Shown here: positions 204 through 32,378 of the stretch, piece by piece
Numbering within the stretch: position 1 is the stretch's first letter
Layout of the letters: each line of letters starts with the position of its first letter
Source: an uncultured Clostridia bacterium
GTDB lineage: Bacteria; Bacillota; Clostridia; TANB77; CAG-508
Direction: 5' to 3'
Assembly: GCA_944386645.1 (NCBI GenBank)
Contig: CALXBW010000016.1
Coordinates: 1 to 32,378 of the forward strand
DNA: 32,378 bases
Program-made: the position numbers and the translations under genes
Notes under the pieces: model-generated
Databases searched by the model: none
Seen by the model: only the letters and a program-made list of their open reading frames with translations
Told to the model about the DNA's origin: nothing

Positions 204-1304
204 CTAATTTGATTTTCTTATTTTTAATTGCATTATTGTCCTATTTAACACATCTATATTTTTTTCCTCTATTTGAGCCTTAGCTTGTTCTAAAGAAATC
301 TTATTTTTTACAAATAAATTTGCTAAAGAATTTATTAAACTAATACTTCCTTTTTCAATACTACTTTGCATAGAATCTTCTATTTCAGAAACACTTAATT
401 TTTCTTTTCTTATGCATCCTGCTATTACATTATCTACAACCATTACTTCTGGTACCATTATCAATTTATTTTCTGGATTGGTTAATAATCTTTGTGAAAT
501 AACTAATTTTAATAATGTAGCTATCAAATATTTTACACTTCCTTGATCACTAATATCATAAAAGTTAATCATCCTATCAATAGTTTCTGCGCATGATCGT
601 GTATTCAAAGTTCCTATAACTAAATGTCCGGATTCAGCCATTTCGATTGCTGCATCCATTGTTTCTCTATCTCTAATTTCACCTATTACTAATATATCAC
701 AGTCTTCTCTTAAAGAATTTTTTACACCATCACTAAAAGTCAAAACATCTTTACTTAAGCCAACTTCTTTTTGTACAATAACAGATTTTTTTGATTTGTG
801 TGTATACTCAATAGGATTTTCTAATGTAAGTATTTTTCTATTTTGATTTTCATTTATTTCATTTATCAATGCATTTAACGTAGTTGTTTTTCCAGAATTT
901 GTCTTTCCTGTAACTAGCATTAGCCCCTGTGGCTGAAATGTCATTCTTCTTACAATATCTGGAACTCCTAATTCTTCAAATTTAGGCAATTCAGACTTTA
1001 TTATTCTCAAAGTTACAACTGGTATATCATTAGATAATGACATATTTGCTCTTAAACGTATATCTCCATACATATATGAAAAATCTAATCTTCTTTGCTT
1101 TTTAAATAAATTATCCTTTTCTATATTTCCTCTTATAAAAAAATCATATACATCTAACATATCTTCATTTTTTATTACATCACCTATTTCAGATTCAATA
1201 AGTGATCTTGCTATTCTTAACATAGGCTTTATTCCTGATATTAAATGTACATCTGATGCATCTTTTTTTATTGCCTCATCCAATATTTTTTCAATTTGTA
1301 CCAT
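204..1304 (-). CDS. pilT: Type IV pilus retraction ATPase PilT
   Basis: This 366-residue hexameric secretion ATPase would drive pilus retraction and twitching at the cytoplasmic face of the membrane. Visible motifs are the N-terminal ASDVHL segment, Walker A GKTNSGKTT at about 133-141, an Asp-box LENPIEY near 161-167, Walker B DILVIGEIRDRE at about 203-214, and the segment ETIDRMINFY near 240-249, which matches the PilT family better than PilB. Length fits PilT (about 350). The gene lies 17 bases downstream of pilB, with a TAGGAGGAA ribosome binding site. One oddity is the His box, which reads GHLVIGTLNT with Asn at about 234 where most PilT proteins have a second His. Assignment as PilT rather than a second extension ATPase is likely because pilB is adjacent and has the PilB-specific N-domain and zinc motif. 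Confidence 0.93.
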   Translation of the reverse strand: MVQIEKILDEAIKKDASDVHLISGIKPMLRIARSLIESEIGDVIKNEDMLDVYDFFIRGNIEKDNLFKKQRRLDFSYMYGDIRLRANMSLSNDIPVVTLRIIKSELPKFEELGVPDIVRRMTFQPQGLMLVTGKTNSGKTTTLNALINEINENQNRKILTLENPIEYTHKSKKSVIVQKEVGLSKDVLTFSDGVKNSLREDCDILVIGEIRDRETMDAAIEMAESGHLVIGTLNTRSCAETIDRMINFYDISDQGSVKYLIATLLKLVISQRLLTNPENKLIMVPEVMVVDNVIAGCIRKEKLSVSEIEDSMQSSIEKGSISLINSLANLFVKNKISLEQAKAQIEEKNIDVLNRTIMQLKIRKSN

Positions 1305-1321
1305 TTCTATTTCCTCCTATT

Positions 1322-2950
1322 CTAATAAAAAATTATTTTCCTATTTAATTCATCTAAAGTTATCTCACCATCTAAAACTTTCCCTATTCCATCTACTATA
1401 AGAGGTCTATATCCATCTTTTATAGCTTGTTTTCTTATTTCAATTGTTGAAGCATTATTTATAATTAACTCTTTCATATCTTCTTTAATTTCTAAAACTT
1501 CAAATACTCCTGTTCTACCATAAAAACCTGTATTATTACATTTAGAACATCCCTGTGGTTCAAATGTATATTTACCATTAAAATCGACATTAATCCCATA
1601 TTTATTCATTATAGAATTAATTATATCTTTTTCTTCTTGTGTATATTCCCTTTGTTTCGCACATTCTCTACATATTTTTCTTACAAGTCTTTGTGAAACT
1701 GATACTGCTAAAGTACTTGCAATATCATAATTAGAAACACCCATTTTTCTAAGTCTTGTTACAACTTCAATGCTATCTATAGTATGGATTGTAGACAATA
1801 CATAATGACCTGTTTGTCCAGCTTGCATAGCTATTTCTGCAGTCTCTCTATCTCTTATTTCACCAACTAAAATTATATCTGGATCTTGTCTTAAGACAGT
1901 TCTTAGCGAATCTGAAAAAGTATTTTTAGCAGCTATTTCTATTTGATTTAATCCATTTATTCTAATTTCTACTGGATCTTCTATTGTTGTTATATTTATA
2001 TTAGGACTGTTTAATAAATCAATAATACTATAAAGACTAGTAGTTTTTCCTTCTCCTGTTGGTGCAGCAATAATAGTAATACTATTTCTCTTATTAAATA
2101 TTTTTCTTGTCTCCATTATACCTTTTCTAAATCCTAATTCATTTAAAGCTTGTATATCTGTATTTTTCTTCAATAACCTAAGTACAAATTTTTCACCATA
2201 AACATTTTTTTGTGAAGATACACGTATATTATAATCTGGATATATTAATATTCTTCCATCTTGTGATTCTTGTTTTTCTTGATGCATATTAGATATTGCT
2301 TTTAATCTTCCTATTATCTGATTTTGTTTATCCTTTTCAATATTTGCAACAGTTATAAGTTCTCCATCAATTCTATATCTAACTCTTATAACATCATTTT
2401 GTGGTTCAATGTGTATATCACTTGCTCTTTTATCAATTCCATTTTTTATTATATTATCTATTAATGATGTAACATCTCTTATATTCTCTATCCTATCACT
2501 TGTTTTTCCTTCTAAAAATTTTAAAACATCTTCAATATTTGTTGCAAAAGTTATATATCTTTCCATAGTAAGACCTTTATTTAGTAATAACAATCTTACA
2601 GTATCAATAGCACGTTTATCAGATGTATCTGCAAAGCATACCCTTACTCTGCCATTAATTATATCAAAAGGTACTGCCATACATTGTTTAGCTACATCCA
2701 ATGATATATAATCTACAACATTTATAGCTATATCACTTGGCTCTAAAATGATAGCTTTTTCATCTAATATTTCCCCCATAACTTTTATTAATGAATAGCT
2801 ATCACATAGCCCCAATATATTTATTATATCACCTAATTTCCTACCTGGATGTTCTTTCTGATACTCTATAGCTTTGCTAACATCATTTTCATCTATCAAA
2901 CCTCTTCTTACCAATTCAACCCCAATAGGTAATTTATTTTTTCCTTCCAT
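1322..2950 (-). CDS. pilB: Type IV pilus extension ATPase PilB
   Basis: This 542-residue ATPase would power pilin polymerisation. The N-terminal third (about 1-145) has the GspE/MshEN-type layout, including RKLGDIINILG near 38-48. The catalytic half shows RASDIHIEP (175-183), Walker A APTGEGKTT at about 296-304, Asp box TIEDPVEIR (322-330), and Walker B DPDIILVGEIRDRE (356-369). The His box GHYVLSTIHT (381-390) is intact. Zinc-binding cysteine pairs CREC (427, 430) and CSKC (468, 471) lie near the C-terminus, as expected for PilB/GspE and absent from PilT. It sits between the large pseudopilin gene and pilT, with a GAGAGGTGA ribosome binding site before the ATG. Confidence 0.95.
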   Translation of the reverse strand: MEGKNKLPIGVELVRRGLIDENDVSKAIEYQKEHPGRKLGDIINILGLCDSYSLIKVMGEILDEKAIILEPSDIAINVVDYISLDVAKQCMAVPFDIINGRVRVCFADTSDKRAIDTVRLLLLNKGLTMERYITFATNIEDVLKFLEGKTSDRIENIRDVTSLIDNIIKNGIDKRASDIHIEPQNDVIRVRYRIDGELITVANIEKDKQNQIIGRLKAISNMHQEKQESQDGRILIYPDYNIRVSSQKNVYGEKFVLRLLKKNTDIQALNELGFRKGIMETRKIFNKRNSITIIAAPTGEGKTTSLYSIIDLLNSPNINITTIEDPVEIRINGLNQIEIAAKNTFSDSLRTVLRQDPDIILVGEIRDRETAEIAMQAGQTGHYVLSTIHTIDSIEVVTRLRKMGVSNYDIASTLAVSVSQRLVRKICRECAKQREYTQEEKDIINSIMNKYGINVDFNGKYTFEPQGCSKCNNTGFYGRTGVFEVLEIKEDMKELIINNASTIEIRKQAIKDGYRPLIVDGIGKVLDGEITLDELNRKIIFY

Positions 2951-2966
2951 CTATATCACCTCTCAA

Positions 2967-3812
2967 TTATATTTCAATAGGTCCATAAATACTATTATTT
3001 AAAATTTTTGATACATTATTTGAATCCAATTCTGATAAACTTATCCAAATTCCTGATTTATTATTTGAAAATTCACTTGGCACTACATATCCTGATGACA
3101 CATCAACTAATTTTCCATTTTTATCTACAGTTTTATTACCACTTCCATATATAAATTCCACATTGTTTCCATTATATGCGAATTTTGGAATCCATACATA
3201 TATAGTTGCAGGGCTTATGATATTTCCACTATTTGTAATATCACTTTTCATAACTGCTACAGCCCATTTTTTATTAAGATAATTATACCAATTTCTATCA
3301 GCTGAATTAGTTTGTATTAAATTATTATTTGAATTATATTTTGCTGCAACCATTCCGCTTTCTAACTCTGGAATATTAGGCACAACCATGCTTTCCTTTT
3401 CTTTTATTTTCATAAAATCTATTTTTCTTTGTTTATTTCCAACTTCATACTTCAATGTTAGATTTATCGTTTTTACTACATCTATATCAAAATCTTCAGG
3501 TTTATATGTTTCTATATTTATATCCACATCATACCCTCTATCTATATTAATTCCTGCAATACTTTTTTTACCATTAGTTTTTTCAATTACTTTAAAATTT
3601 TCATTATTTACTTCATCATAATATAACTCATCAATTTTTTCTAGTATTGATATAGAATAACCAATTGCTTGCTCTCTCCTCAATATTTCTACATTTGATG
3701 TATATAAATTTATATATAATGATGTAATTACAGACATAAATATAGTAATTATTAAAACAGCTAATGCAATATCTACTCCAGTAAAACCATTATTTTTTTT
3801 TAAATACTTCAT
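2967..3812 (-). CDS. Large type IV pseudopilin (prepilin-type N-terminus)
   Basis: The 281-residue product begins MKYLKKNNG, then FTGVDIALAVLIITIF. A charged leader, Gly9 and the hydrophobic helix form a class III prepilin signal cut after Gly9 and methylated at Phe1. Mature position 5 is Asp, not the Glu conserved in most pilins. The first half is a pilin-like domain with an extended helix. The second half has a separate beta-rich segment with YVWIPKFAYN near residue 206; from memory, similar W/V-W-I-P segments recur in clostridial surface and phage proteins. The gene lies between pilD and pilB, suggesting a minor pilin or a tip or adhesive subunit. The role is inferred. Confidence 0.75.
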   Translation of the reverse strand: MKYLKKNNGFTGVDIALAVLIITIFMSVITSLYINLYTSNVEILRREQAIGYSISILEKIDELYYDEVNNENFKVIEKTNGKKSIAGINIDRGYDVDINIETYKPEDFDIDVVKTINLTLKYEVGNKQRKIDFMKIKEKESMVVPNIPELESGMVAAKYNSNNNLIQTNSADRNWYNYLNKKWAVAVMKSDITNSGNIISPATIYVWIPKFAYNGNNVEFIYGSGNKTVDKNGKLVDVSSGYVVPSEFSNNKSGIWISLSELDSNNVSKILNNSIYGPIEI

Positions 3813-3820
3813 TTATATTA

Positions 3821-4588
3821 TCACATCCCACTATTTACAAAATTACTCAATATCATAAAAACTATATTAAAAATACCTATATATGAACATATTGGAATTA
3901 TTTTATTATTGTCAATTTTTTTATGTTCTTGCACTAGCATTTTTATTGCCAATATTAACAATACAAATATTATTGTTGCAAGAGTAACTATTGTTCCTGT
4001 AAATAACAATGTTAAAAATAAAACATAAAATACAGAAAATATATATTTATCATTTTGAATAATATATATTAACAATAAAATTATATAATATATAACATAT
4101 CTATATATATTAACACCTACTATATATAGATATAGTATATAAATTAAAGAAATAATAAGTCCAAATTTTTTTATTGACCTTGTAACATATTTTTTTTCTC
4201 TATCAATTCCAATAATAATTATTAATGTGACTATATATATTGTTGAAATTAATATATATATTAATTCTTTATATCCAATATTTAATATGTTTAAATTTAA
4301 TGACATTACAAATAACATATATATAATTCCAGAAAATACTTCTAGTATTAGATATCTTATTCTTACTTTATCATTACAATATCTACATTTTCCTCTCAAA
4401 AAGATATAACTAAATATTGGTATCATATCCCAAAAAACTAATTTATGATTACAATTTGGACAATATGATCTTTTATTTAATATATTTTCCTTTTTTGGTA
4501 TTCTATATACTGCTAACGTTGTAAAGCTACCTAACAAAGTTCCTATTATAAATGCAAATACATATATTATAATGTTTAACATTTTCAC
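3821..4588 (-). CDS. pilD: Prepilin peptidase PilD-like, with degenerate second active-site motif
   Basis: This 255-residue polytopic membrane protein belongs to the A24 aspartic peptidase family, which cleaves prepilin leaders and methylates the new N-terminus. The N-terminal domain has GSFTTLAVYRIP (20-31) and two Cys pairs, CPNC (43, 46) and CRYC (68, 71), typical of the methyltransferase zinc site. The first catalytic Asp is probably Asp129 in IIGIDREKK. The second site, normally GxGDxK, appears only as IIQNDKY with Asp180; both glycines are missing. The rest is very hydrophobic with about six to eight membrane segments. It lies directly downstream of the pilin, the expected position. It may be active through Asp129 and Asp180, or it may have lost peptidase activity. 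Confidence 0.82.
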   Translation of the reverse strand: MKMLNIIIYVFAFIIGTLLGSFTTLAVYRIPKKENILNKRSYCPNCNHKLVFWDMIPIFSYIFLRGKCRYCNDKVRIRYLILEVFSGIIYMLFVMSLNLNILNIGYKELIYILISTIYIVTLIIIIGIDREKKYVTRSIKKFGLIISLIYILYLYIVGVNIYRYVIYYIILLLIYIIQNDKYIFSVFYVLFLTLLFTGTIVTLATIIFVLLILAIKMLVQEHKKIDNNKIIPICSYIGIFNIVFMILSNFVNSGM

Positions 4589-4595
4589 TCCTATT

Positions 4596-4643
4596 TATAC
4601 TAAATTGAGCATATACATTTATTGCATATGCTCATTTAGTATA
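4596..4643 (-). terminator. Stem-loop between major pilin and pilD
   Basis: Bases 4596-4614 pair with 4626-4643 (one bulged T), giving an 18-bp hairpin centred on GAGCATAT / ATATGCTC. It begins 15 bases after the pilin stop codon. No clear U-run follows on the minus strand, so it is more likely an mRNA-stabilising or partial attenuating hairpin that raises pilin mRNA relative to the downstream assembly genes than a full terminator. Confidence 0.65.
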
Positions 4644-4657
4644 ATATTAATTATTAA

Positions 4658-4882
4658 TTATCCATTTATTTCATTTATTTTATTATCAATTGTTTGATTA
4701 ATAAAATTCAATAATTCAGCTTCATTTGTAGCTGCATTATCATATTCATTTACAGCAGTTTGTGCATTATTTATTAAATTTCCTTGTAATGCAAATGTTA
4801 TTGAAACCCCCGCTAAAATTAATAATACTATGATTGTGATAATCAATGCAACTAATGTTATACCTTTGTTTGCTTTAAACAT
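4658..4882 (-). CDS. Very short major type IV pilin
   Basis: The 74-residue precursor begins MFKANKG, then ITLVALIITIIVLLILAGVS, a prepilin signal with cleavage predicted after Gly7. The mature protein would be only 67 residues, a long N-terminal helix plus a short polar tail (many Asn, Glu, Ala) and no globular beta-sheet head or disulfide cysteines. Mature position 5 is Ala instead of Glu. Proteins with this ITLxALxITIIVLLILAG helix are frequent in Clostridia. Position in the operon, directly upstream of pilD and followed by a strong hairpin, suggests this is the major subunit. The ribosome binding site is AGGAGG just before the ATG. Confidence 0.85.
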   Translation of the reverse strand: MFKANKGITLVALIITIIVLLILAGVSITFALQGNLINNAQTAVNEYDNAATNEAELLNFINQTIDNKINEING

Positions 4883-4934
4883 AAAAAATCCTCCTTTATT
4901 TATTTTATTATATATTTAATACAATAAATTTATA

Positions 4935-5396
4935 TTATTTCATACCACTATCTTCAAAGAAAGTTCCTGTATAATCTGGATTTTCCTGTTCTTCTTTTGT
5001 ATTTGTAGTATTTGAATTATTTATTGTATTTTTAACATTATTATTTTTTGTACTATCACTAGTACTTGTACTACTTGAATTTGTAGTTGTGTTATTTTCA
5101 TAATTATTTATACTAAAAGGATCTACTTTTCCTTCCTTATAACTACCCTGTTTCTTATATCCACTTAAGTCTGAATCATCAATTTCATAAGTTACAATTA
5201 TTCTTTCTTCTTCATTTTGAACTGCTTTATTTAGTTCTTCTTTTACATCGCTTAAGCTCGCTGGCATAGTATATTCTACTGGTTGTGGTATTGTTTTATT
5301 TATAGGTATATAATCATAAAATATTACTGCCAAAATTAAAACAAGTGCTATACATAATAAAATAGTAATCATTAATTCTTTTAGAAAATTTTTCAC
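4935..5396 (-). CDS. Single-pass pilus assembly protein, PilP-like by position
   Basis: The 153-residue protein has one N-terminal membrane helix (about 9-27), then an extracytoplasmic part. It includes a short conserved-looking stretch KVDPFSINN near 90-98, reminiscent of the (R/K)xDPF motif of PilP and GspC-type proteins. The C-terminal half is low complexity, rich in Thr, Ser and Asn, and probably disordered. It sits between pilO and the pilin gene, where Gram-negative operons carry pilP. There is no signal-peptidase II lipobox. Function as the alignment-complex partner of PilO is inferred from the gene order and DPF motif; homology is not certain. Confidence 0.55.
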   Translation of the reverse strand: MKNFLKELMITILLCIALVLILAVIFYDYIPINKTIPQPVEYTMPASLSDVKEELNKAVQNEEERIIVTYEIDDSDLSGYKKQGSYKEGKVDPFSINNYENNTTTNSSSTSTSDSTKNNNVKNTINNSNTTNTKEEQENPDYTGTFFEDSGMK

Positions 5397-5415
5397 TTGA
5401 ATACCTCCTTATTAC

Positions 5416-6111
5416 CTATTTATTAGTATTTGTTGTGTTTGAACTATCTTGTGTAGAATTTGTACTATTTGTATTTTCTGTATTTGTTACAGTAGTCGTT
5501 TTCTTTATATTATCTAAATTTATAGCAACATCTCTAACCTTAAATTTGTAACTTAAAATAGATCTATTTCTTTCATTTTGCGTACCTGTAGGTTCTAACT
5601 CAAAATCTTCTATTGTAAAGTTTAATTTATCATCTTTTTCAATATCAGAAATAAAATCAGCTATATTATTATACTCACCTGTTCCTTCAAATATTATATC
5701 AGACATATTAGGTGTACCTGTACTACTTTCTGCAAAGCTTAAATTTAATTTTAAGTTGTTTTCTGTTGCATAATTTCCTATATCAACCCATAATACTTCT
5801 ATTTCATATTTTTTATATTCTGATATATCTTGTATATCGGAATCTTCACCAACACTAACTAAACTTAAATACTCATTTTTAGTAGATATTAATTCTTTTC
5901 CTGCAGCACTTAAATCTGATAATGATGTTGGGTATGTTTTATTTTTTAAAGTATCCAACTCTAAAATTTTATTATCTAATTCATTATTTTTATTTTTTAT
6001 TTCTTGTAATGATGCTATTTTGACTCCAGAAATACTAAAACCATTTACAACAATTGCATATGAAAATATTGATATAATTAAAATAATTAATATTAATATA
6101 ATTTTTTTCAT
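5416..6111 (-). CDS. pilO: Type IV pilus alignment protein PilO
   Basis: The 231-residue protein has one N-terminal membrane helix (about 3-24) and a coiled-coil stretch (about 37-60, rich in Lys, Asn, Glu, Leu). A mixed alpha/beta region follows to about residue 195, matching the PilO/GspM ferredoxin-like architecture. The last 30 residues are a Thr/Asn/Ser tail. Its ATG overlaps the pilMN stop codon in an ATGA, so the two are translationally coupled. PilO pairs with the PilN part of PilMN in the inner-membrane alignment complex. The assignment rests on architecture and order more than on strong sequence motifs. Confidence 0.8.
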   Translation of the reverse strand: MKKIILILIILIISIFSYAIVVNGFSISGVKIASLQEIKNKNNELDNKILELDTLKNKTYPTSLSDLSAAGKELISTKNEYLSLVSVGEDSDIQDISEYKKYEIEVLWVDIGNYATENNLKLNLSFAESSTGTPNMSDIIFEGTGEYNNIADFISDIEKDDKLNFTIEDFELEPTGTQNERNRSILSYKFKVRDVAINLDNIKKTTTVTNTENTNSTNSTQDSSNTTNTNK

Positions 6112-7727
6112 GGTAAATCACCCTCAATCGTAATATTAATATATTCACCATTTTTATTTCCACTTGTAGTAGTTATATTTAATAAATACTCTTTAGACTT
6201 TAGTTGTGCCAAAAAATATCCTAACTGTTCTATTTTCTTTGATCTAGCAGTAATAACTATATGTGAATCATTAGTATTCTTTATAGATGTTAATTGAGCT
6301 TCTTCTGGTATACAAAACATTATTCTATTTAGTAAATTAGGTATTGCATTTTTTGATTTATATTTTTCACTTGCCTTTTGATTTATTTCATCAATTTGTT
6401 TTATTAAATTATTATAATCATTTGTTCTAGTTTTAATACTATTAATATCTTTTTCTACTGCAGCAATTTGCTTATAAAAGTCTTGTTTTTTATTTTCTGA
6501 TTCACCTATTTTAGTTTCTAATTGATTATTTACTGCAATTGAAAATACAGAATATAATATAACAGCAGTTAAAATTGTACCAGCTATTCTTGCTAGCACT
6601 CTATCTGTGCCATCAAATTCTTTGCCTAAATCTACTTTTGCAGTTAATAACGACATTAAATTTTTACTAGAAGAACTAGAATTTGAATTTCCTAACTGTG
6701 GTAATTCAATTTTATCTCTTAATGTCAATTCTTTAAAATTAACACTACTGATTCCTATTCCTAAACCTTGAAGACCCAGTGCAACTGCAGAATTTACTTC
6801 TATATATTCTTTTATATTTACTTTCAAAGAAGTTGTGTCTATAAAATATGGTTTTAATATTTCACATTTTGTATTATTTAAGTTTTCTTGAAAATACAAA
6901 TCGATGTTATTTATTACAACTCCAGCCCCTGTAAGATATATTTTATCTACACTTAATTTATTATCAGATAATATCTTTTTAAACTTTTTAATTATATTAT
7001 ATAATACAGGCATTATATCTTCTAAATACTCATTTTCAGCAATTTGCAAATCTTTACTATTAGATGTATATATTGTTGTATTTTTACATAAATCATATGC
7101 TTTAGAATAAGAATTTTCTCTTATTCCAATTTTATCAAATATTTGTTTCATTCCATCAGATATTACTTTTATTTCATATAAAATACCATCTAATATTATT
7201 GTAATAATAGTTCTATCTTCTATATTTATTATTGCAACATTTTCTTTTGTATTTGTTTCAATTAAATTTGTAATACTTGTAGATAATGGCGTTATATTTC
7301 TTAATTTATATCTTTCTAATTCTTTCACTTTTCTTGCAATTTCAGTTTTATTAGCTGATATATATATAGCTCTTAACTTTTCATCATCATCTTTATTTGG
7401 CACACAAAAATATCTTGAATCTATAACATTTTTATTTATTCCATTTTCATCACAATAAAATTCGAATTCTGTTTTTATAGCTTTTTCTATATCTTTCTTA
7501 CTTAACATAGAAAATACATTAAAATAATTATACATTTCATCTGATAAATTAATGCTAATTGGTGTTTTAAAACTATATGTTTCACTTATTATTTGATTTA
7601 ATACATCTTCTAACATTTCATATTGTTTTACCCCATAAGATTCTATTTTTATATTATTACGTTCTTTAGATATTTTAGCATATTTTATCATGTTACTATC
7701 TATATATAACCCCAAACACTCCGCCAT
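6108..7727 (-). CDS. pilMN: PilM-PilN fusion protein (actin-like cytoplasmic domain plus membrane-anchored domain)
   Basis: At 539 residues this is about the sum of PilM and PilN. Residues 1-325 form a PilM/FtsA-like actin fold: LGLYIDSNMIKYAKI (5-19) is the first phosphate-binding loop, IINIEDRTIITIILDG (166-181) the second, and YLTGAGVVINNI (264-275) the adenosine motif. Residues 328-345 (SSVNFKELTLRDKIELP) resemble the cytoplasmic PilN peptide that binds PilM. A membrane helix follows at about 378-400, then a coiled coil (about 402-455) and a small alpha/beta domain. The fusion joins the two partners covalently. From memory, Clostridioides difficile also has a pilMN gene. It is the first gene of the operon, with an AAGGAGAA ribosome binding site. 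Confidence 0.92.
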   Translation of the reverse strand: MAECLGLYIDSNMIKYAKISKERNNIKIESYGVKQYEMLEDVLNQIISETYSFKTPISINLSDEMYNYFNVFSMLSKKDIEKAIKTEFEFYCDENGINKNVIDSRYFCVPNKDDDEKLRAIYISANKTEIARKVKELERYKLRNITPLSTSITNLIETNTKENVAIINIEDRTIITIILDGILYEIKVISDGMKQIFDKIGIRENSYSKAYDLCKNTTIYTSNSKDLQIAENEYLEDIMPVLYNIIKKFKKILSDNKLSVDKIYLTGAGVVINNIDLYFQENLNNTKCEILKPYFIDTTSLKVNIKEYIEVNSAVALGLQGLGIGISSVNFKELTLRDKIELPQLGNSNSSSSSKNLMSLLTAKVDLGKEFDGTDRVLARIAGTILTAVILYSVFSIAVNNQLETKIGESENKKQDFYKQIAAVEKDINSIKTRTNDYNNLIKQIDEINQKASEKYKSKNAIPNLLNRIMFCIPEEAQLTSIKNTNDSHIVITARSKKIEQLGYFLAQLKSKEYLLNITTTSGNKNGEYINITIEGDLP

Positions 7728-8197: not shown

Positions 8198-8237
8198 CTT
8201 TTGTAATAACTAAAATTTAACTCGATTGGAGGTATTT

Positions 8238-8690
8238 ATGAATTCTACACCACTTGATACTAAACAAGATTATCAAAATTATGTCAATTCAAAATCCCCT
8301 AATTCTCCTATTCTTAAAAATTGTTTTAATGCTTTTTGGGTTGGTGGACTAATTTGTACTACTGGTCAATTAATCTCTAGTTATTGTCAATATAAAGGGC
8401 TAGATCAAAATATGAGTAATACTATTGTCTCTATTATCTTAATTTTTATAACTGCTTTTCTAACATCCATTAATGTATTTAATAAAATAGGTAAATTTGC
8501 AGGTGCTGGCTCATTAATTCCTATAACTGGATTTGCAAATTCTATTGTTTCTCCTTCTATGGAATATAAATCGGAAGGATATGTAATGGGTGTAGGTGGA
8601 AAAATGTTTACAGTTGCAGGTCCAGTATTAGTTTTTGGGATATCTACTTCTATATTAGTAGGAATTTTATATTTTATATTTAATATTTAA
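8238..8690 (+). CDS. spoVAC: Stage V sporulation protein AC
   Basis: SpoVAC is a forespore inner-membrane protein of the channel that loads and releases dipicolinic acid; in Bacillus it behaves as a mechanosensitive channel. The 150-residue product has three to four membrane segments (about 28-46, 60-78, 86-105, 125-148) and the family signature GKFAGAGSLIPITGFANS. Length matches B. subtilis SpoVAC. The frame is open upstream to a TTG at 8226, but that codon overlaps the GGAGG at 8228-8232, so the ATG at 8238 is the start. Confidence 0.95.
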   Translation: MNSTPLDTKQDYQNYVNSKSPNSPILKNCFNAFWVGGLICTTGQLISSYCQYKGLDQNMSNTIVSIILIFITAFLTSINVFNKIGKFAGAGSLIPITGFANSIVSPSMEYKSEGYVMGVGGKMFTVAGPVLVFGISTSILVGILYFIFNI

Positions 8691-8731
8691 AATTTTATTA
8701 AAGATATTTATCAGTGCTATTGGAGGTTAAT

Positions 8732-9736
8732 GTGAATAGAATAGGAAATCAAACAATTAAATTTAATAATCCACCAACAATATTAGAAACAGCTAGTATT
8801 GTTGGTCCAAAAGAAGCTAACGGTCCCCTTTCTAAATATTTTGATAAATGCTTAGAAGATGAATTTTGGGGAGAAAATAGTTGGGAAAAAGCAGAAAGTA
8901 AAATGATAAAAGAAGCATCAAATTTAGCTATATCTAAATCTAATTTACCAATTTCCGATATTAATTTTTGTTTAGCAGGTGATTTGTTAAATCAATGTAT
9001 ATCGTCAAATTTCGGATTAAGAGAAATAAATATTCCCTTTTTTGGTATATTTGGTGCTTGCTCTACATTTGCAGAAAGTTTATGCTTAGGTTCTATATTA
9101 GTTGAATCGAATGCTGCCAACAATGTTTTATGTAGTGTTTCTAGTCATTTTTGTAGTGCAGAAAAACAATTTCGCTTTCCATTAGAATTAGGAAACCAAA
9201 GGCCACAAAGTGCCCAATGGACTGTTACAGGTTCTGGATGTGCCATAATTTCTAAAACTGGTCAAGGACCTTATATAACCCATATAACTCCAGGTAAAAT
9301 TATTGATATGGGAATAAAAGATTCTAATAATATGGGAGCTGCTATGGCACCTGCAGCACTTGATACTCTAATCACTCACTTTAAAGATACTGGTAGAAAC
9401 CCCAGTTATTATGATGGTATTTTCACTGGTGATTTAGGTTATGTAGGAAAAGAAATATTAACTGAATTAGCCTTATCTAAAGGTTATAACATAAAATCAA
9501 ATTATAATGATTGTGGAGTTTTAATCTTTGACAAAGATGCTCAGGATACACATTCTGGTGGTTCTGGATGTGCTTGCGCAGCAACAGTATTTTCAGGATA
9601 TATATTTAATCAGTTAAAAGAAAAAAAATATAAAAAGATATTATTAATTGCTACAGGTGCTTTAACCAATTCTACAACAGCACAACAAGGAGAAAGTATT
9701 CCTGGTATAGCACATGCTGTAAGTATAGAAATTTAA
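8732..9736 (+). CDS. spoVAD: Stage V sporulation protein AD
   Basis: SpoVAD is the soluble, thiolase-fold dipicolinic acid-binding subunit of the SpoVA complex. The 334-residue product has the family landmarks SIVGPKEANGPL near the N-terminus, GIFGACSTFAESLCLG around 110-125, and CSVSSHFCSAEKQFRFP near 140-156. The segment GIFTGDLGYVGKEI follows, and an SGGSGCACAATVFSGYIF stretch near the C-terminus. Length is close to the 338 residues of B. subtilis. The start is a GTG at 8732, five bases after GGAGG (8722-8726). An upstream in-frame GTG at 8714 would place the ribosome binding site inside the gene, and the ATG at 8730 is out of frame. Confidence 0.95.
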   Translation: MNRIGNQTIKFNNPPTILETASIVGPKEANGPLSKYFDKCLEDEFWGENSWEKAESKMIKEASNLAISKSNLPISDINFCLAGDLLNQCISSNFGLREINIPFFGIFGACSTFAESLCLGSILVESNAANNVLCSVSSHFCSAEKQFRFPLELGNQRPQSAQWTVTGSGCAIISKTGQGPYITHITPGKIIDMGIKDSNNMGAAMAPAALDTLITHFKDTGRNPSYYDGIFTGDLGYVGKEILTELALSKGYNIKSNYNDCGVLIFDKDAQDTHSGGSGCACAATVFSGYIFNQLKEKKYKKILLIATGALTNSTTAQQGESIPGIAHAVSIEI

Positions 9737-9793
9737 ATTAATATTATTCAAAAATTTTCATTAGAGCTAAATTTATAATGAATGGAGGCTATT

Positions 9794-10180
9794 ATGGGGT
9801 TCTTTCAGACACTTGATTATATGATGCTTTTAAAAGCATTTATAGTAGGAGGATTAATTTGCATTATTGGTCAAATACTAATAGATAAAACTAAATTAAC
9901 TTCAGCAAGAATATTAGTCATATTTGTAACAACAGGTGTAATTCTTGGAGGATTAGGAATATATAAATATTTAGTTGATTTTGCTGGAAGTGGTGCAACA
10001 GTACCTCTTACTGGATTTGGAAATGCACTTGCAAAAGGCGCAATTGAAGGAGTAAAACAATATGGGTTTATAGGAGCTTTTACTGGTGGAGTTACAGCAG
10101 CTGCTGGTGGAATTGCTGCTGCTGTATTTTTCGGATATATTGCTGCACTTATTGCGAAACCAAAAATGAAAAAACAATAG
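9794..10180 (+). CDS. spoVAE: Stage V sporulation protein AE (SpoVAEb type)
   Basis: This 128-residue membrane subunit of the dipicolinic acid channel has four hydrophobic segments and the family motifs FIVGGLICIIGQILIDKTKL and FAGSGATVPLTGFGNALAKG. The latter is related to the SpoVAC signature, reflecting common ancestry of the two subunits. The start is the ATG at 9794, five bases after GGAGG (9784-9788); the ATG at 9782 overlaps that site and is rejected. It is the last gene of the operon, and its stop codon lies inside the following terminator. The operon lacks spoVAA, AB, AEa and AF here, a reduced C-D-Eb set. Confidence 0.95.
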   Translation: MGFFQTLDYMMLLKAFIVGGLICIIGQILIDKTKLTSARILVIFVTTGVILGGLGIYKYLVDFAGSGATVPLTGFGNALAKGAIEGVKQYGFIGAFTGGVTAAAGGIAAAVFFGYIAALIAKPKMKKQ

Positions 10181-10899: not shown

Positions 10900-11634
10900 T
10901 TAATAATTAACTTCTACAAGATATAATCCATGTGGTGGTAAAGTTTTTCCTGCTAATTTTCTATCTTTTGCTTCTAAAATTCTTTTTACATCTTCAGGTT
11001 TTATTTTTCCAATTCCAACATCTATAAGTGTACCAGATATTATTCTAACCATATTATATAAAAAACCATTACCCTCATATTCCATATATATTCTTTCGTC
11101 TTTTTTTTCTATATTAATTTTATATATTGTTCTAACACTATTTTTGCCACTAGTTCCACTTGCTTTAAATGACGTAAAATCATGCTCACCTTCTAAATAT
11201 TTAGATGCTTGTTTCATTTTTTCTATATCAATATTATTTGTTACATTATATTCTAATGCTCTATATATTGCACTACCAGTTTGAGAATTATTTATAATAT
11301 ATCTATACTTCTTTGATTTACAATTATATCTAGAATGAAATCTTTCTTCTACTTCTTCTGCGTATTTAATTCTTATACTCTTTTTTAATTTTGAGTTAAT
11401 AGCATTTGGTATTTTTTCTATAGAAATATTACTATTAGTCTTAAAATTTGCTGTTTGCCCTAAACTATGAACTCCCGCATCTGTTCTGCCTGAAGCAATT
11501 AAATCTACTTTTTCACCAGTGATCAGTTCTATGGCAAGCTCTATTTCTCCTTGAATATTTAATTTATTAGGTTGTTTTTGCCAACCCCCAAATCCTTTAC
11601 CATCATATTCAATAATTAATTTTATATTTCTCAT
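10900..11634 (-). CDS. truA: tRNA pseudouridine(38-40) synthase TruA
   Basis: The 244-residue enzyme converts uridines 38-40 of the tRNA anticodon stem to pseudouridine. The catalytic Asp52 lies in ASGRTDAGVHSLGQ. Other family marks are IEYDGKGFGGWQKQP near the start, the RFHSRYNCKSKKYRY strand, HDFTSFKASG, and the C-terminal GNGFLYNMVRIISGTLIDVG. Length matches the family. Its ATG overlaps the cdaA stop in an ATGA, implying coupled translation. Downstream (10840-10899) I see no hairpin terminator, so some read-through towards secG is possible. Confidence 0.96.
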   Translation of the reverse strand: MRNIKLIIEYDGKGFGGWQKQPNKLNIQGEIELAIELITGEKVDLIASGRTDAGVHSLGQTANFKTNSNISIEKIPNAINSKLKKSIRIKYAEEVEERFHSRYNCKSKKYRYIINNSQTGSAIYRALEYNVTNNIDIEKMKQASKYLEGEHDFTSFKASGTSGKNSVRTIYKINIEKKDERIYMEYEGNGFLYNMVRIISGTLIDVGIGKIKPEDVKRILEAKDRKLAGKTLPPHGLYLVEVNY

Positions 11635-12570
11635 TTTTTTATCTCTTCTTTTTTGTTTTTAGAACGATTATTATTAATTTTTTCTTTTATTTTATTAACA
11701 AATTTTATTTCTTTCTTTTCATTTTGTTGCATTCTTTTTGTTACAACATGTTTTATTAATATTCTCTTTAAAGCTTCTTCTTTTATATCAGCAATTAATG
11801 TACCATCTTTTGCAACTGATATTTTTCCAGTTTCTTCTGAAACAACTACTGCTATACTATCTGATTCTTTTGAAATTCCTATTGCTGCTCTATGTCTTGT
11901 ACCTAATTCCTTAGCTATGTCTTTATCACTTGCAAGTGGCAACATACATGCAGAAGCCATTATTTTATTATCACTAATTACAACTGCACCGTCATGTAAC
12001 GGTGTATTAGGTGTAAATATATTTACCAATAATTGTGGTGATATTTCAGAATTCATATATATACCTGTACTTATTATATCTTTTATTTCGATATCTCTTT
12101 CTATAACAATTAGTGCACCTGTTTTCGTCTTTGCAAGTTCTGTTACAGCAATTACAATTTTATATATATTTTCTTTAGTTTTTGTTGCAATATCTTTATC
12201 TATTCCGAAAAAATTTTGTTATTTTACTTGTACCTAACTGCTCCAATGCTCTTCTAAGTTCTGGTTGAAATATAACTATTATTATAATTACACCATATGT
12301 CATAACAGATGTTAATATAAAATGTAATATATTTAGTTCCAATACTCCACTTAATGCTGTAACTATTATTAAATATACTATTCCTTTTAATAATTGCCAA
12401 GCTCTTGTTTCCTTTACTAATTGCAAAACTTTATAAGCTAAAAAAACAACTATAGTTATATCTATTATTAATAATATTAATTTTATAGGATATTGATGTA
12501 AACTTAGCAAATAATCTGCTATATTTTGTTCATAAAAATTTTCAAACATTATTCTAATATTTTCTAACAT
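11631..12570 (-). CDS. cdaA: Diadenylate cyclase CdaA, reading frame interrupted by a one-base shift
   Basis: CdaA is the membrane-bound enzyme that condenses two ATP into c-di-AMP. From the ATG at 12570 (GAGG site upstream) the frame encodes three membrane helices and PELRRALEQLG, then stops at TAA 12196-12198. The next frame, open from 12218 on, continues the same protein: GALIVIERD, the DGA motif (NTPLHDGAVVIS) and the RHR motif (GTRHRAAIG). Its frame-internal ATG at 12056 is too late to give a full DAC domain. Dropping one base in the T-run at 12208-12213 joins both into a 312-residue CdaA. The codons there are AAA TTT TTT CGG; a +1 slip at TTT re-pairs on TTC and reads GGA next. Sequencing error, true mutation and recoding all remain possible. 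Confidence 0.88.
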
Positions 12571-24082: not shown

Positions 24083-27802
<3,720 letters not shown>

Positions 27803-28217
27803 AAAAATCACCCCTATTTAAGTTGTGAATACTCACACTTTAATAATTTTTTAGCAGATTTATATTACTTAAAAAAAGCACAAAAAAGTCCCTCTTAAAT
27901 AAAAATGTTATATAAAATAAAAATTTTACTGCCTATCAATTTTTACTCCATATAATTATTTCTATTTAATTCCTCTATTTTTGTATTTTTTAAGTTGTTA
28001 TCTAGGCAACAAAAAGGCATGTTGGCAGATACTTTTTTTACCAACTTACCTTTAATATTTTTCTTTATTTAATTAGTATAACAAACTCTTTTTTTATAAT
28101 AATCACCTTAACTTTTAAATTTTAGAAAAGTATACTATTTAGAATTTAAATATTTTTGAATTATCTTTAGAATTTAAATGTATTAATAAAAATGTCGTTT
28201 GTCATCTCAATATAGCT
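27803..28217 (-). promoter_or_regulatory. Long untranslated leader of rpoB-rpoC
   Basis: About 415 bases separate the predicted start of transcription from rpoB. I see no gene in it. A short stem, GTTGG with CCAAC (about 28021-28045), and a nearby GGCAAC...GTTGCC-like pairing could form a structured leader. A second -10-like TATACT lies near 28076-28081 but lacks a convincing -35. Direct TTTAGAATTTAAAT copies lie near 28137-28150 and 28166-28179. The region may hold an autoregulatory site, which sequence alone cannot show. Confidence 0.4.
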
Positions 28218-28329: not shown

Positions 28330-30954
28330 TTATCTTTCTATATCTTTTTCCATCATTTTCTTTAAAATTTTTCCTTCTTTCTCTATATCATTGATTTTTA
28401 AGTTTTCAGTGTTTTTATTTAAAGAATACATTTGCATTTTTCTTTTCGATGCATATTCTTCATCAAGTTTTCTTAATCTCATATAATTTATTTTTTCTCT
28501 TATCTTACTAGCTTTTTCTTGTACCAATATACTTCCACTTCTTTTTATTATTTCTTTTCCTATTCCTTCTTCTTCCAACACTTCTATTATTTCCTTTATT
28601 TCTTTTGCTTTGCCTCGTGCTAATATAGTTCCATTTGTTTTTATTATTTCTTTTCCTATTCCTTCTTCTTCCAACACTTCTATTATTTCCTTTATTTCTT
28701 TTGCTTTACCTTTTGCTAATATATCTCCATTTGTTTTTATTATTTCTTTTCCTATTCCTTCTTCTTCTAATACTTTTATTATTTCTTTTATTTCTTCTGC
28801 TTTACCTTGTACCAATATAGTTCCATTTGTTTTTATTATTTCTTTTCCTATTCCTTCTTCTTCTAATACCTTTATTATCTCTTTTATTTCTTTTGCTTTG
28901 CCTAGGGCTAATATACTTCCGCTTCTTTTTATTATTTCTTTTCCTATTCCTTCTTCTTCTAATACCTTTATTATCTCTTTTATTTCTTTTGCTTTGCCTA
29001 GGGCTAATATACTTCCGCTTCTTTTTATTATTTCTTTTCCTATTCCTTCTTCTTCTAATACCTTTATTATCTCTTTTATTTCTTTTGCTTTACCACAAGC
29101 TAATATATTTACACTTCTTTTTATTATTTCTTTTCCTATTCCTTCTTCTTCCAACACCTCTATTATTTCTTTTATTTCTTTTGCTTTACCTTGTGCTAAT
29201 ATAGTTCCATTTCTTTTTATTATTTCTTTCCCTATTCCTTCTTCTTCTAATACCTCTATTATTTCTTTTATTTCTCCTGCTTTACCATAAGCTAATATAT
29301 TTCCATTTCTTTTTATTATTTCTTTTCCTATTCCTTCTTCTTCCAATACTTCTATTATTTCCTTTATTTCTTTTACTTTACCACAAGCTAATATAGTTCC
29401 ACTTCTTTTTATTGTTTCTTTTCCTATTCCTTCTTCTTCCAATACCTCTATTATTTCTTTTATTTCTTTTGCTTTACCTAGTGCTAATATATTTCCATTT
29501 CTTTTTATTATTTCTTTCCCTATTCCTTCTTCTTCCAATACCTCTATTATTTCTTTTATTTCTTTTGCTTTACCTTGTGCTAATATATTTCCATTTCTTT
29601 TTATTATTTCTTTCCCTATTCCTTCTTCTTCCAACACCTTTATTATCTCTTTTATTTCTTTTGCTTTGCCTCGTACCAATATAGTTCCATTTCTTTTTAT
29701 TATTTCTCTTCCTATTCCTTCTTCTTCTAACACCTTTATTATTTCTTTTATTTCTCCTGCTTTACCATAAGCTAATATATTTCCATTTGTTTTTATTATT
29801 TCTTTCCCTATTCCTTCTTCTTCTAACACCTTTATTATTTCTTTTATTTCTTTTGTTTTGCCTCGTGCTAATATGTCCCCATTTGTTTTTATTATTTCTT
29901 TTCCTATTCCTTCTTCTAACACCTTTATTATCTCTTTTATTTCTTTTGCTTTGCCTCGTGCTAATATAGTTCCATTTGTTTTTATTATTTCTTTTCCTAT
30001 TCCTTCTTCTTCTAACACCTTTATTATTTCTTTTATTTCTTTTGCTTTACCTTGTACTAATATATTTACATTTGTTTTTATTATTTCTTTTCCTATTTCT
30101 TCTTCTTCTAACACCTTTATTATTTCTTTTATTTTTTTTGCTTTACCTTGTGCTAATATACTTCCACTTCTTTTTATTACTTCTTTTCCTATTTTTTCTT
30201 CTTCTAACACCTTTATTATTTCTTTTATTTCTTTTGCTTTACCTTGTGCTAATATACTTCCACTTCTTTTTATTACTTCTTTTCCTATTTTTTCTCTTTC
30301 TAATACTTCTATTATTTCTTTTATTTCTTTTGCTTTGCCTAGGGCTAATATATTTCCATTTGTTTTTATTATTTCTTTTCCTATTCCTTCTTCTTCTAAC
30401 ACCTTTATTATTTCTTTTATTTCTTTTGCTTTGCCTTTTGCTAATATGTCTCCATTTGTTTTTATTATTTCTTTTCCTATTCCTTCTTCTTCCAATACCT
30501 CTATTATTTCTTTTATTTCTTTTGCTTTGCCTAAGGCTAATATAGTTCCATTTGTTTTTATTATTTCTTTTCCTATTTTTTCTTCTTCTAATACCTTTAT
30601 TATTTCTTTTATTTCTTTTGCTTTGCCTAGGGCTAATATAGTTCCATTTGTTTTTATTATTTCTTTTCCTATTTTTTCTTCTTCTAACACCTTTATTATT
30701 TCTTTTATTTCTTTTGCTTCGCCTCGTGCTAATATACTTCCGCTTCTTTTTATTATTTCTTTTCCTATTCCTTCTTCTTCCAACACATTTATTATTTCTT
30801 TTATTTCTTTTGCTTTGCCTAGAGCTAATATATTTCCATTTGTTTTTATTATTTCTTTTCCTATTCCTTCTTCTTCCAACACATTTATTATTTCTTTTAT
30901 TTTTTTTGCTAACTTTTCTCCTAATATTAATTCTAAACTATTACATTCTTCCAT
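28330..30954 (-). CDS. Protein of 25 tandem 32-residue helical repeats, function unknown
   Basis: The 874-residue product is a 16-residue leader, 25 contiguous repeats and a 59-residue charged C-terminal helix. Each repeat starts KEIKEII, has VLEEE at 9-13, GIGKEII at 14-20 and ends ILAxGKA; one unit (the 11th) lacks one Glu. Predicted fold is two helices per repeat, an alpha solenoid. Variation is confined mostly to positions 8, 14, 22-23 (TN, RS or RN), 25 (N, S, T or D) and 29 (L, R, K, Q, Y or C). There is no signal peptide. The start is ATG 30954 after GAGGTGG; the in-frame GTG at 30966 lies in that site. It is coupled to the gene upstream. I do not recognise a characterised family. Confidence 0.85.
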   Translation of the reverse strand: MEECNSLELILGEKLAKKIKEIINVLEEEGIGKEIIKTNGNILALGKAKEIKEIINVLEEEGIGKEIIKRSGSILARGEAKEIKEIIKVLEEEKIGKEIIKTNGTILALGKAKEIKEIIKVLEEEKIGKEIIKTNGTILALGKAKEIKEIIEVLEEEGIGKEIIKTNGDILAKGKAKEIKEIIKVLEEEGIGKEIIKTNGNILALGKAKEIKEIIEVLEREKIGKEVIKRSGSILAQGKAKEIKEIIKVLEEEKIGKEVIKRSGSILAQGKAKKIKEIIKVLEEEEIGKEIIKTNVNILVQGKAKEIKEIIKVLEEEGIGKEIIKTNGTILARGKAKEIKEIIKVLEEGIGKEIIKTNGDILARGKTKEIKEIIKVLEEEGIGKEIIKTNGNILAYGKAGEIKEIIKVLEEEGIGREIIKRNGTILVRGKAKEIKEIIKVLEEEGIGKEIIKRNGNILAQGKAKEIKEIIEVLEEEGIGKEIIKRNGNILALGKAKEIKEIIEVLEEEGIGKETIKRSGTILACGKVKEIKEIIEVLEEEGIGKEIIKRNGNILAYGKAGEIKEIIEVLEEEGIGKEIIKRNGTILAQGKAKEIKEIIEVLEEEGIGKEIIKRSVNILACGKAKEIKEIIKVLEEEGIGKEIIKRSGSILALGKAKEIKEIIKVLEEEGIGKEIIKRSGSILALGKAKEIKEIIKVLEEEGIGKEIIKTNGTILVQGKAEEIKEIIKVLEEEGIGKEIIKTNGDILAKGKAKEIKEIIEVLEEEGIGKEIIKTNGTILARGKAKEIKEIIEVLEEEGIGKEIIKRSGSILVQEKASKIREKINYMRLRKLDEEYASKRKMQMYSLNKNTENLKINDIEKEGKILKKMMEKDIER
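28510..30906 (-). repeat. Array of 25 in-frame 96-base repeats
   Basis: The 2.4-kb array encodes the repeats of the helical repeat protein. Units are contiguous with no spacers and keep the 96-base period, except one unit of 93 bases. The plus strand is pyrimidine-rich (TTCTTCTTCT stretches). Some neighbouring units are nearly identical in DNA (for example those around 28890-29080), which suggests recent duplication or gene conversion. The repeats create long open frames on the opposite strand that have no other support. Confidence 0.95.
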
Positions 30955-30967
30955 ATAATTTTCCACC

Positions 30968-31258
30968 TCATAAATTATTTTTTAATTCATTTTTTATATA
31001 TTTATTTATTAATTTCATTTTTTCATCTTTTTCAGATAAATAATTAATCTGCAACCATCCTAATATATTCAATGCTCTTTTTGATATATTTTTTTTATTA
31101 AATATATCATTTTTATCTATTTTTACTTTATATTCTATATTTCTATTGTCTTTTATTGTTTTTACAATTTCTATTGGTATTTTCATCACTAGTTTTCTAT
31201 CCATATTTTTTAAAATTTCAAATACTTCTGTATATGCATTTCTTCTATCCTCTTCCAT
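30968..31258 (-). CDS. Small helical protein of unknown function, coupled to the repeat protein
   Basis: The 96-residue product begins MEEDRRNAYTEVFEILKNMD and has no membrane helix or signal peptide. It is lysine- and isoleucine-rich and mainly helical, with a central IPIEIVKTIKDN and a later ISKRALNILGWLQINYLSE segment. I have the impression that small proteins of this layout (AYTEVxEIL ... IP ... LSxxALxLL) recur in Clostridia, but I cannot name a family. It is the first gene of the unit; its TGA overlaps the ribosome binding site of the repeat gene, so the two are translated together. Promoter at 31295-31323 and a GTAGGTGAAT ribosome binding site support expression. Confidence 0.8.
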   Translation of the reverse strand: MEEDRRNAYTEVFEILKNMDRKLVMKIPIEIVKTIKDNRNIEYKVKIDKNDIFNKKNISKRALNILGWLQINYLSEKDEKMKLINKYIKNELKNNL

Positions 31259-32092: not shown

Positions 32093-32378
32093 GTATTATT
32101 TATGAAATTTTAATTATTAACATTATTTTAATGTTACAATTCGCAGCTTATATAGTTACATGTTCAATTTTTTGAGAAATAACTCTGTTGTGCGGGCGAA
32201 CACTGTTCGCCCCTACAGCTATTCTATTAGATTCTTCTATATAAGTTTTTATAGATTTTGATATAATAATAATGAATAAATTTTGAATGCGATTGGAGAT
32301 ATTTATAGAATTTGTTATATAATTTAATGAGGAATGTTCATGGGCAAAATCTTTGATTTTGAGCCTGAATGAAAGAGG
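32093..32378. other. Gene-poor end of the window with several inverted repeats
   Basis: No convincing gene is seen. TAACATTA (32118-32125) is repeated inverted at 32129-32136. A GC-rich palindrome lies at 32194-32212. Near the end, GGC-AAAATC (32343-32351) pairs with GATTTTGAGCC (32355-32365). A plus-strand ATG at 32339 opens only ten codons. The right-hand 100 bases may belong to a dispersed element or to the leader of a gene outside the window. Confidence 0.5.
32194..32212. repeat. GC-rich palindrome, REP-like
   Basis: GGGCGAACACTGTTCGCCC is a perfect 9-bp inverted repeat around a central C, followed by CTACA, in otherwise AT-rich sequence. There is no U-run, so it is not a simple terminator. 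It resembles dispersed extragenic palindromes seen in several bacteria; copy number in this genome cannot be judged here. Confidence 0.6.

Follow-up and report, generated by a model that had tools for sequence, protein, structure and literature searches.

A long, regular array of mTERF-like repeats encoded beside rpoB in an uncultured Clostridia bacterium is probably a sequence-specific DNA binder

What is the ligand of a protein with 25 tandem 32-residue repeats whose variation peaks at two positions? We addressed this question for a gene in a window of 32,378 bases, the entire contig C16 of a 1.69-Mb MAG of a gut Clostridia bacterium. The window protein is probably a sequence-specific DNA binder that stands alone, a superhelix of the mTERF-like (pTERF-like) kind. 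The array gene is single-copy within its own genome, and a ribosome-binding-like AGGTGG at 30968-30963 lies 5' of its ATG. The features of the locus are as follows.

30968..31258, minus strand: 96-aa gene directly upstream of the array gene, ending in a stop codon that overlaps the ribosome-binding-like site of the latter
28330..30954, minus strand: array gene, 874 aa from ATG, an intact ORF with no stops
28330-30966, minus strand: alternative ORF of the array gene from a GTG start at 30966, 878 aa
30904..30954, minus strand: short N-terminal cap, ~17 aa (~40 aa in relatives)
28507..30903, minus strand: 25 tandem repeats of 32 aa (31 in repeat 11), with hypervariable repeat positions 24 and 28
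29851..29943, minus strand: repeat 11, the sole 31-aa repeat, with one E missing (from script parsing)
28330..28506, minus strand: C-terminal tail, ~58 aa, occupying the place of the ~290-aa sigma-like domain of relatives
24083..27811, minus strand: rpoB, identified by sequence, co-directional with and downstream of the array gene; rpoC is next

The array gene lies 0.5 kb upstream of rpoB, and the 96-aa gene, the array gene and rpoB are all on the same strand. The 96-aa gene is probably in the same operon as the array gene; we rejected it as an array-specific partner, as it belongs to a common multi-copy family. Elsewhere the window holds a type IV pilus-like cluster (204-7727; PilT/PilB ATPases, prepilin peptidase and PilM-type proteins) and spoVAC/AD/AE-like genes (8226-10180), the MAG being small-genome and Clostridia-like. 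A frameshift or an assembly error apparently breaks a cdaA-like (diadenylate cyclase) gene into a pair of ORFs at 12196-12570 and 11631-12056. At 32230-32378 lies a MITE/REP-like repeat element of ~149 bases that often adjoins a partial inverted copy, with 26 matches in the window genome and 77 in that of a sister species, G002, where one sits beside the array.

Counting each repeat from its EIKEII start, positions 25 and 29 of a preliminary description of this DNA become 24 and 28 here, and we recovered the residue series that it had read from first repeat to last, N S T T D N S S N T D N T N N T N T N S S T D T S at position 24 and L R L L K L Q Q Q R R Y R Q L C Y Q C L L Q K R Q at position 28. 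Its statement that all 25 repeats have 32 residues is correct for 24 of them, but not for repeat 11 with its 31. Variation had also been described as confined to a few positions; the peaks are indeed at 28 (2.36 bits of entropy) and 24 (1.86 bits), the top two of the 32 columns, but the description was slightly overstated, as position 7 (K/E/N) follows at 1.31 bits and positions 21-22 (T/R, N/S), 32 and 13 vary further. Among seven independent arrays of the same family, position 28 has the highest entropy in six and shares the top rank in the remaining one, while position 24 ranks 2nd once, 3rd four times, 5th once and 10th once. Averaged over eight arrays, entropy is 1.98 bits at position 28 and 1.38 bits at position 24, and at most 0.98 elsewhere. 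A Nei-Gojobori-type count between repeats, with positions 21-22 tallied separately, gave dN/dS-like ratios of 2.7 at each of positions 28 and 24 and 0.20 for the scaffold in the window array, and of 2.25 (28), 1.83 (24) and 0.36 (scaffold) over all seven arrays; these ratios are descriptive only, because repeats are not independent sequences. Since position 28 is first or tied first in six other arrays and the ratios at 24 and 28 are far higher than 1 with a scaffold value of 0.20, the pattern goes beyond chance. Residues at the two positions showed no significant association with each other (p 0.08 in the window array; p 0.42 overall).

The AF2 model of the array, covering repeats 1-8 with 18 in-register stretches (pLDDT 90.4, pTM 0.83), predicts a superhelix with three helices per repeat, one long and then two at about residues 17-21 and 24-28. 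Foldseek against the PDB placed DNA-bound human MTERF1 first (E 4.7e-4), then other MTERF1 chains, with the TAL effector dHax3 fifth, and nearly all of the best 50 structural matches were mTERF or TALE chains. VIA-align gave Z 17.1 to MTERF1 and Z 11-12 to TALE/BurrH (rmsd 3.2-3.6 over ~250 residues), scores that repeat or helical models may raise through common arrangement. The predicted array agrees with the description of mTERF proteins as ~33-aa three-helix repeats in a superhelix, and with that of pTERFs as tandem mTERF-like three-helix repeats in bacterial MAGs; it departs from TALE repeats of 33-35 aa and two helices with base readers at 12/13, having 32 aa and three helices. The central helix of MTERF1 is capped by a conserved proline that lines the DNA major groove (PMC4705650). 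Relatives of the array in Bacilli carry an mTERF-like CP[TSY]IL at positions 22-26 (CP[TSY]ILAxG), with a proline at 23 matching this groove-lining proline, and the window repeats have G/V at the conserved mTERF proline (motif position 8). Given the Bacilli proline at 23, residue 24 would be next to it and residue 28 another turn along that helix. Whether the variable positions share one face had been left to structure prediction, and the prediction would put the hypervariable residues at i and i+4 of one short helix, beside the equivalent of the groove-lining proline.

Sequence searches bear on a rival explanation, in which the array binds RNA, its i, i+4 pair (S/T/N/D with K/R/Q/L) reading RNA bases as in PUF/PPR proteins for transcript control. 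The window protein had no match to Pfam mTERF (PF02536), which counts against DNA binding; one relative (L091) reached E 0.0013 and 18.2 bits against a cut-off of 23.1. PDB sequence searches also count against it, as designed PPR proteins dominate the matches, with a 3-aa gap per repeat, and TIGR00756 PPR matched the window array at E 0.0018 (18.3 bits, below the cut-off of 20). Several plant mTERF proteins, moreover, have a role in intron splicing. Because the designed-PPR matches require that gap in every repeat, we rejected PPR as the family, its 35-aa, two-helix unit contrasting with a period of 32 and three helices; the gapped match reflects consensus solenoid composition. The predicted fold matches DNA-bound MTERF1 and TALE, and relatives contain sigma-like and HTH modules, so that RNA binding appears unlikely. 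Matches to Fer4_12, BglII, L24e, MTase_II and other Pfam, NCBIfam, PHROG and PADLOC models were mutually contradictory and were set aside as artefacts of the lysine/glutamate-rich repeat.

Proteins are, as is generally known, frequent ligands of alpha solenoids, and the variable face could instead recognise a peptide or protein. The array is approximately charge-neutral (K+R close to E+D) and not clearly basic, which suits such a ligand and counts against DNA. A long identical scaffold in which just one or two residues switch from repeat to repeat speaks against a protein ligand, as do the MTERF1/TALE-like superhelix and the sigma-like partner domains of relatives. We favour DNA over peptide because of the fold, because relatives have sigma-like and HTH-like partners and because pTERFs are reported to bind DNA, and consider the peptide reading very improbable. 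The earlier suggestion of a modular nucleic-acid or peptide binder with a TALE/BAT, PPR or mTERF layout, made with no claim of homology, is supported by a predicted fold that falls beside DNA-bound MTERF1 and TALE/BurrH, by diversification of 24 and 28 on a conserved scaffold and by variation of the same positions in relatives.

What, then, do these relatives look like? The P0001 search matched 23 of 390 genomes of the bacterial family, the weakest matches (genus g30, E 1e-5 to 1e-3) being unrelated proteins on inspection. The named contigs belong to MAGs that carry the labels Clostridia, Bacilli, Lachnospiraceae and Erysipelotrichaceae; phages, plasmids and IMG/VR yielded no array relatives. 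Where the contig permits, most arrays in the same family and in Bacilli are followed by a ~290-aa C-terminal domain (alignments A1 and A4) that the window protein lacks. In its AF2 model (pLDDT 80.7), sigma factors occur throughout the Foldseek list at weak E values (0.09 and up), and VIA-align superposed a region 2 fold on sigma-28 (Z 8.7, rmsd 2.3 over 78 residues) and a region 4 HTH on 8jzt and 1ku3 (Z ~7, rmsd 2.3-2.6 over 56-60 residues). At the sequence level support is slight: hhalign of 36 C-domains against cellular sigmas gave E 0.0012 over 134 collinear columns, and weaker values with smaller sets; Pfam matches in single members included Sigma70_ECF (0.0033) and r2 (0.022), and HTH_Mga scored above its cut-off in L038. 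On this predicted structure, the C-domain looks like a sigma-factor-like fold with regions 2 and 4.

In L112-L126 (e.g. L113:1-2301 and L120:1414-3621), the same sigma-like C-domain stands behind an array of HTH-like repeats of ~70 aa at the N terminus (consensus IDYxEFLELY..FAEILGIS..NYxxIK..GTRAKIL), putatively a second type of programmable DNA-binding array. Beyond the family, 398 sampled genomes of the phylum yielded two weak matches only, both LuxR-type regulators. Two unlike putative DNA-binding arrays share one C-domain, which supports DNA targeting. In a Bacilli MAG, two array-sigma paralogues stand in tandem (L090:4267-9777), and their 31-aa repeats, CPTILAxGKSQEI, come nearest to the mTERF motif. 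Frameshifts interrupt many of the array-sigma genes (L037, L038, L036, L047, L049, L081, L085, L086 and L096 among them), mostly outside long homopolymers (in L038 at an AAAG tandem); they may stem from decay, from phase variation or from errors of assembly. Three proteins of ~800-890 aa (L003, L004 and L005) from a different family of the order have NPEIL-type repeats of ~32 aa with no Pfam match; two of the three adjoin valS, and they are possibly a bacterial mTERF-like housekeeping protein.

In most Clostridia loci, the array-sigma gene adjoins a gene that we call c1, encoding a ~95-aa helical protein (MEYLKKYGITEEQI...; for example L039:6141-6425, L050:8187-8471 and L043:9597-9881). In a census of hand-picked genomes, c1 was present in all 8 Clostridia genomes chosen for having an mTERF-like array and sigma-like domain, and absent from the 22 others, which include HTH-array genomes and the c1-free window genus. 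A possible role for c1 is that of anti-sigma or co-factor. More tentatively than for DNA binding itself, we propose that gut Clostridia and Bacilli hold protein-programmed sigma factors, of which the window protein would be an effector-less DNA-binding version. In such a factor, a reprogrammable mTERF-like array (or an HTH-repeat array) would pick the DNA site and the fused sigma-70-like domain would recruit RNA polymerase, with c1 accompanying the mTERF-array form in Clostridia.

The lack of both C-domain and partner gene in the window genus, together with the frameshifts that break many relatives, could also mean that the window protein is a decaying, non-functional remnant of an array-sigma protein after loss of its effector domain. 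Against this, its 25-repeat ORF is intact with the scaffold ratio at 0.20, and the tail holds no recognisable C-domain remnant; we rejected that origin of the tail because the comparison scored no better than shuffles. The sister species G002, of the same genus, points the same way, the array being 99% common to the two against 94% for the flanking rpoBC. In G002 the final 249 aa of the array are present beside the same rpoB and run to a contig end; over 764 bp the two arrays share 99.2% identity, against 93.8% over 8 kb of rpoBC with its flank. The coding differences that this species comparison revealed are one position-28 cassette and one position-21 residue. In the first, GCC CTA GGC of the window reads GCT TGT GGT in G002, so that residue 28 is C in place of L and silent changes accompany the switch, a form present in other repeats of the window array. 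The second is T to R at position 21, with no further coding differences in the compared part. This pattern suggests that the array was recently transferred or converted and that a specificity cassette was swapped from repeat to repeat, and a non-functional remnant seems quite unlikely.

For a stand-alone DNA-binding superhelix, we infer DNA as the ligand, one repeat per base, a reading role for 24 and 28 and a roadblock function. Each 32-aa repeat would form one long and two short helices, and the array would wrap in the DNA major groove, with residues 24 and 28 on the groove-facing side setting the base preference of each repeat. At one repeat per base, 25 repeats would therefore specify a site of ~25 bp. 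Recombination between repeats would swap the residues at 24 and 28 and so reprogram the target. Because the window protein lacks the sigma-like C-domain of its relatives, DNA occupancy is the most likely mode, and it would repress transcription or act as a roadblock rather than recruit RNA polymerase. MTERF1 blocks transcription. Two further observations count against DNA binding: the N-cap is very short compared with those of relatives, and a search for targets near array genes was negative and found no base code. A shared residue-28-to-base code fitted to the DNA flanking eight arrays gave no excess with equal restarts.

How does the array compare with known systems? Prokaryotic mTERF-like DNA-binding tandem repeat proteins, pTERFs, are reported by Hu et al. 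2024 (PMC11417379), who describe DNA binding by two members with different motifs and a Kd of 1.87 nM for pTERF1, from a Clostridia MAG. Because this family is already reported, the window array is not a new kind; it is probably of the pTERF kind, likened by description and not by sequence. Both have three-helix mTERF-like repeats in tandem and occur in Bacillota MAGs, one of the published sources being a ruminant-gut Clostridia MAG; pTERF1, moreover, lacks the conserved mTERF proline/leucine pattern. The published members have 3-11 repeats, against 25 here; the paper makes no mention of a sigma factor, nor, in the section considered here, of a partner gene. With MTERF1 and eukaryotic mTERF proteins (PF02536), the array shares the superhelix of ~33-residue three-helix motifs (Z 17.1), and their groove-lining proline corresponds to repeat position 23; those proteins differ in their few (8) degenerate repeats compared with 25 near-identical ones, and the Pfam model is not reached. 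TALE/BurrH (BAT) proteins likewise present one hypervariable spot per repeat on an otherwise fixed superhelix, one that binds DNA as the window array probably does (Z 11-12, rmsd 3.2-3.6), and differ in their 33-35 aa, two-helix repeats and in a sequence signature that the window array lacks.

New here is the fusion of the array to a sigma-like C-domain in relatives, with c1 in Clostridia; among open-licence papers, we found no mTERF-like or TALE-like repeats joined to a sigma factor. If our reading is correct, nature offers in these proteins a set of DNA-binding arrays that are long, very regular and apparently reprogrammable, with far more repeats than the 3-11 of published pTERFs, and the two positions 24 and 28 make a code directly testable. 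A parallel for the fusions is PDB 9n9q, an RNA-guided transcription complex with a sigma factor, dCas12f-sigma. It likewise combines programmable targeting with a sigma factor, and the C-domain of relatives matches its sigma chain (VIA Z 6.8); here a protein array, and no RNA, would do the targeting, and the window protein itself has no sigma part. Array-sigma fusions would then represent transcription initiation aimed by a protein code, in parallel to RNA-guided sigma complexes.
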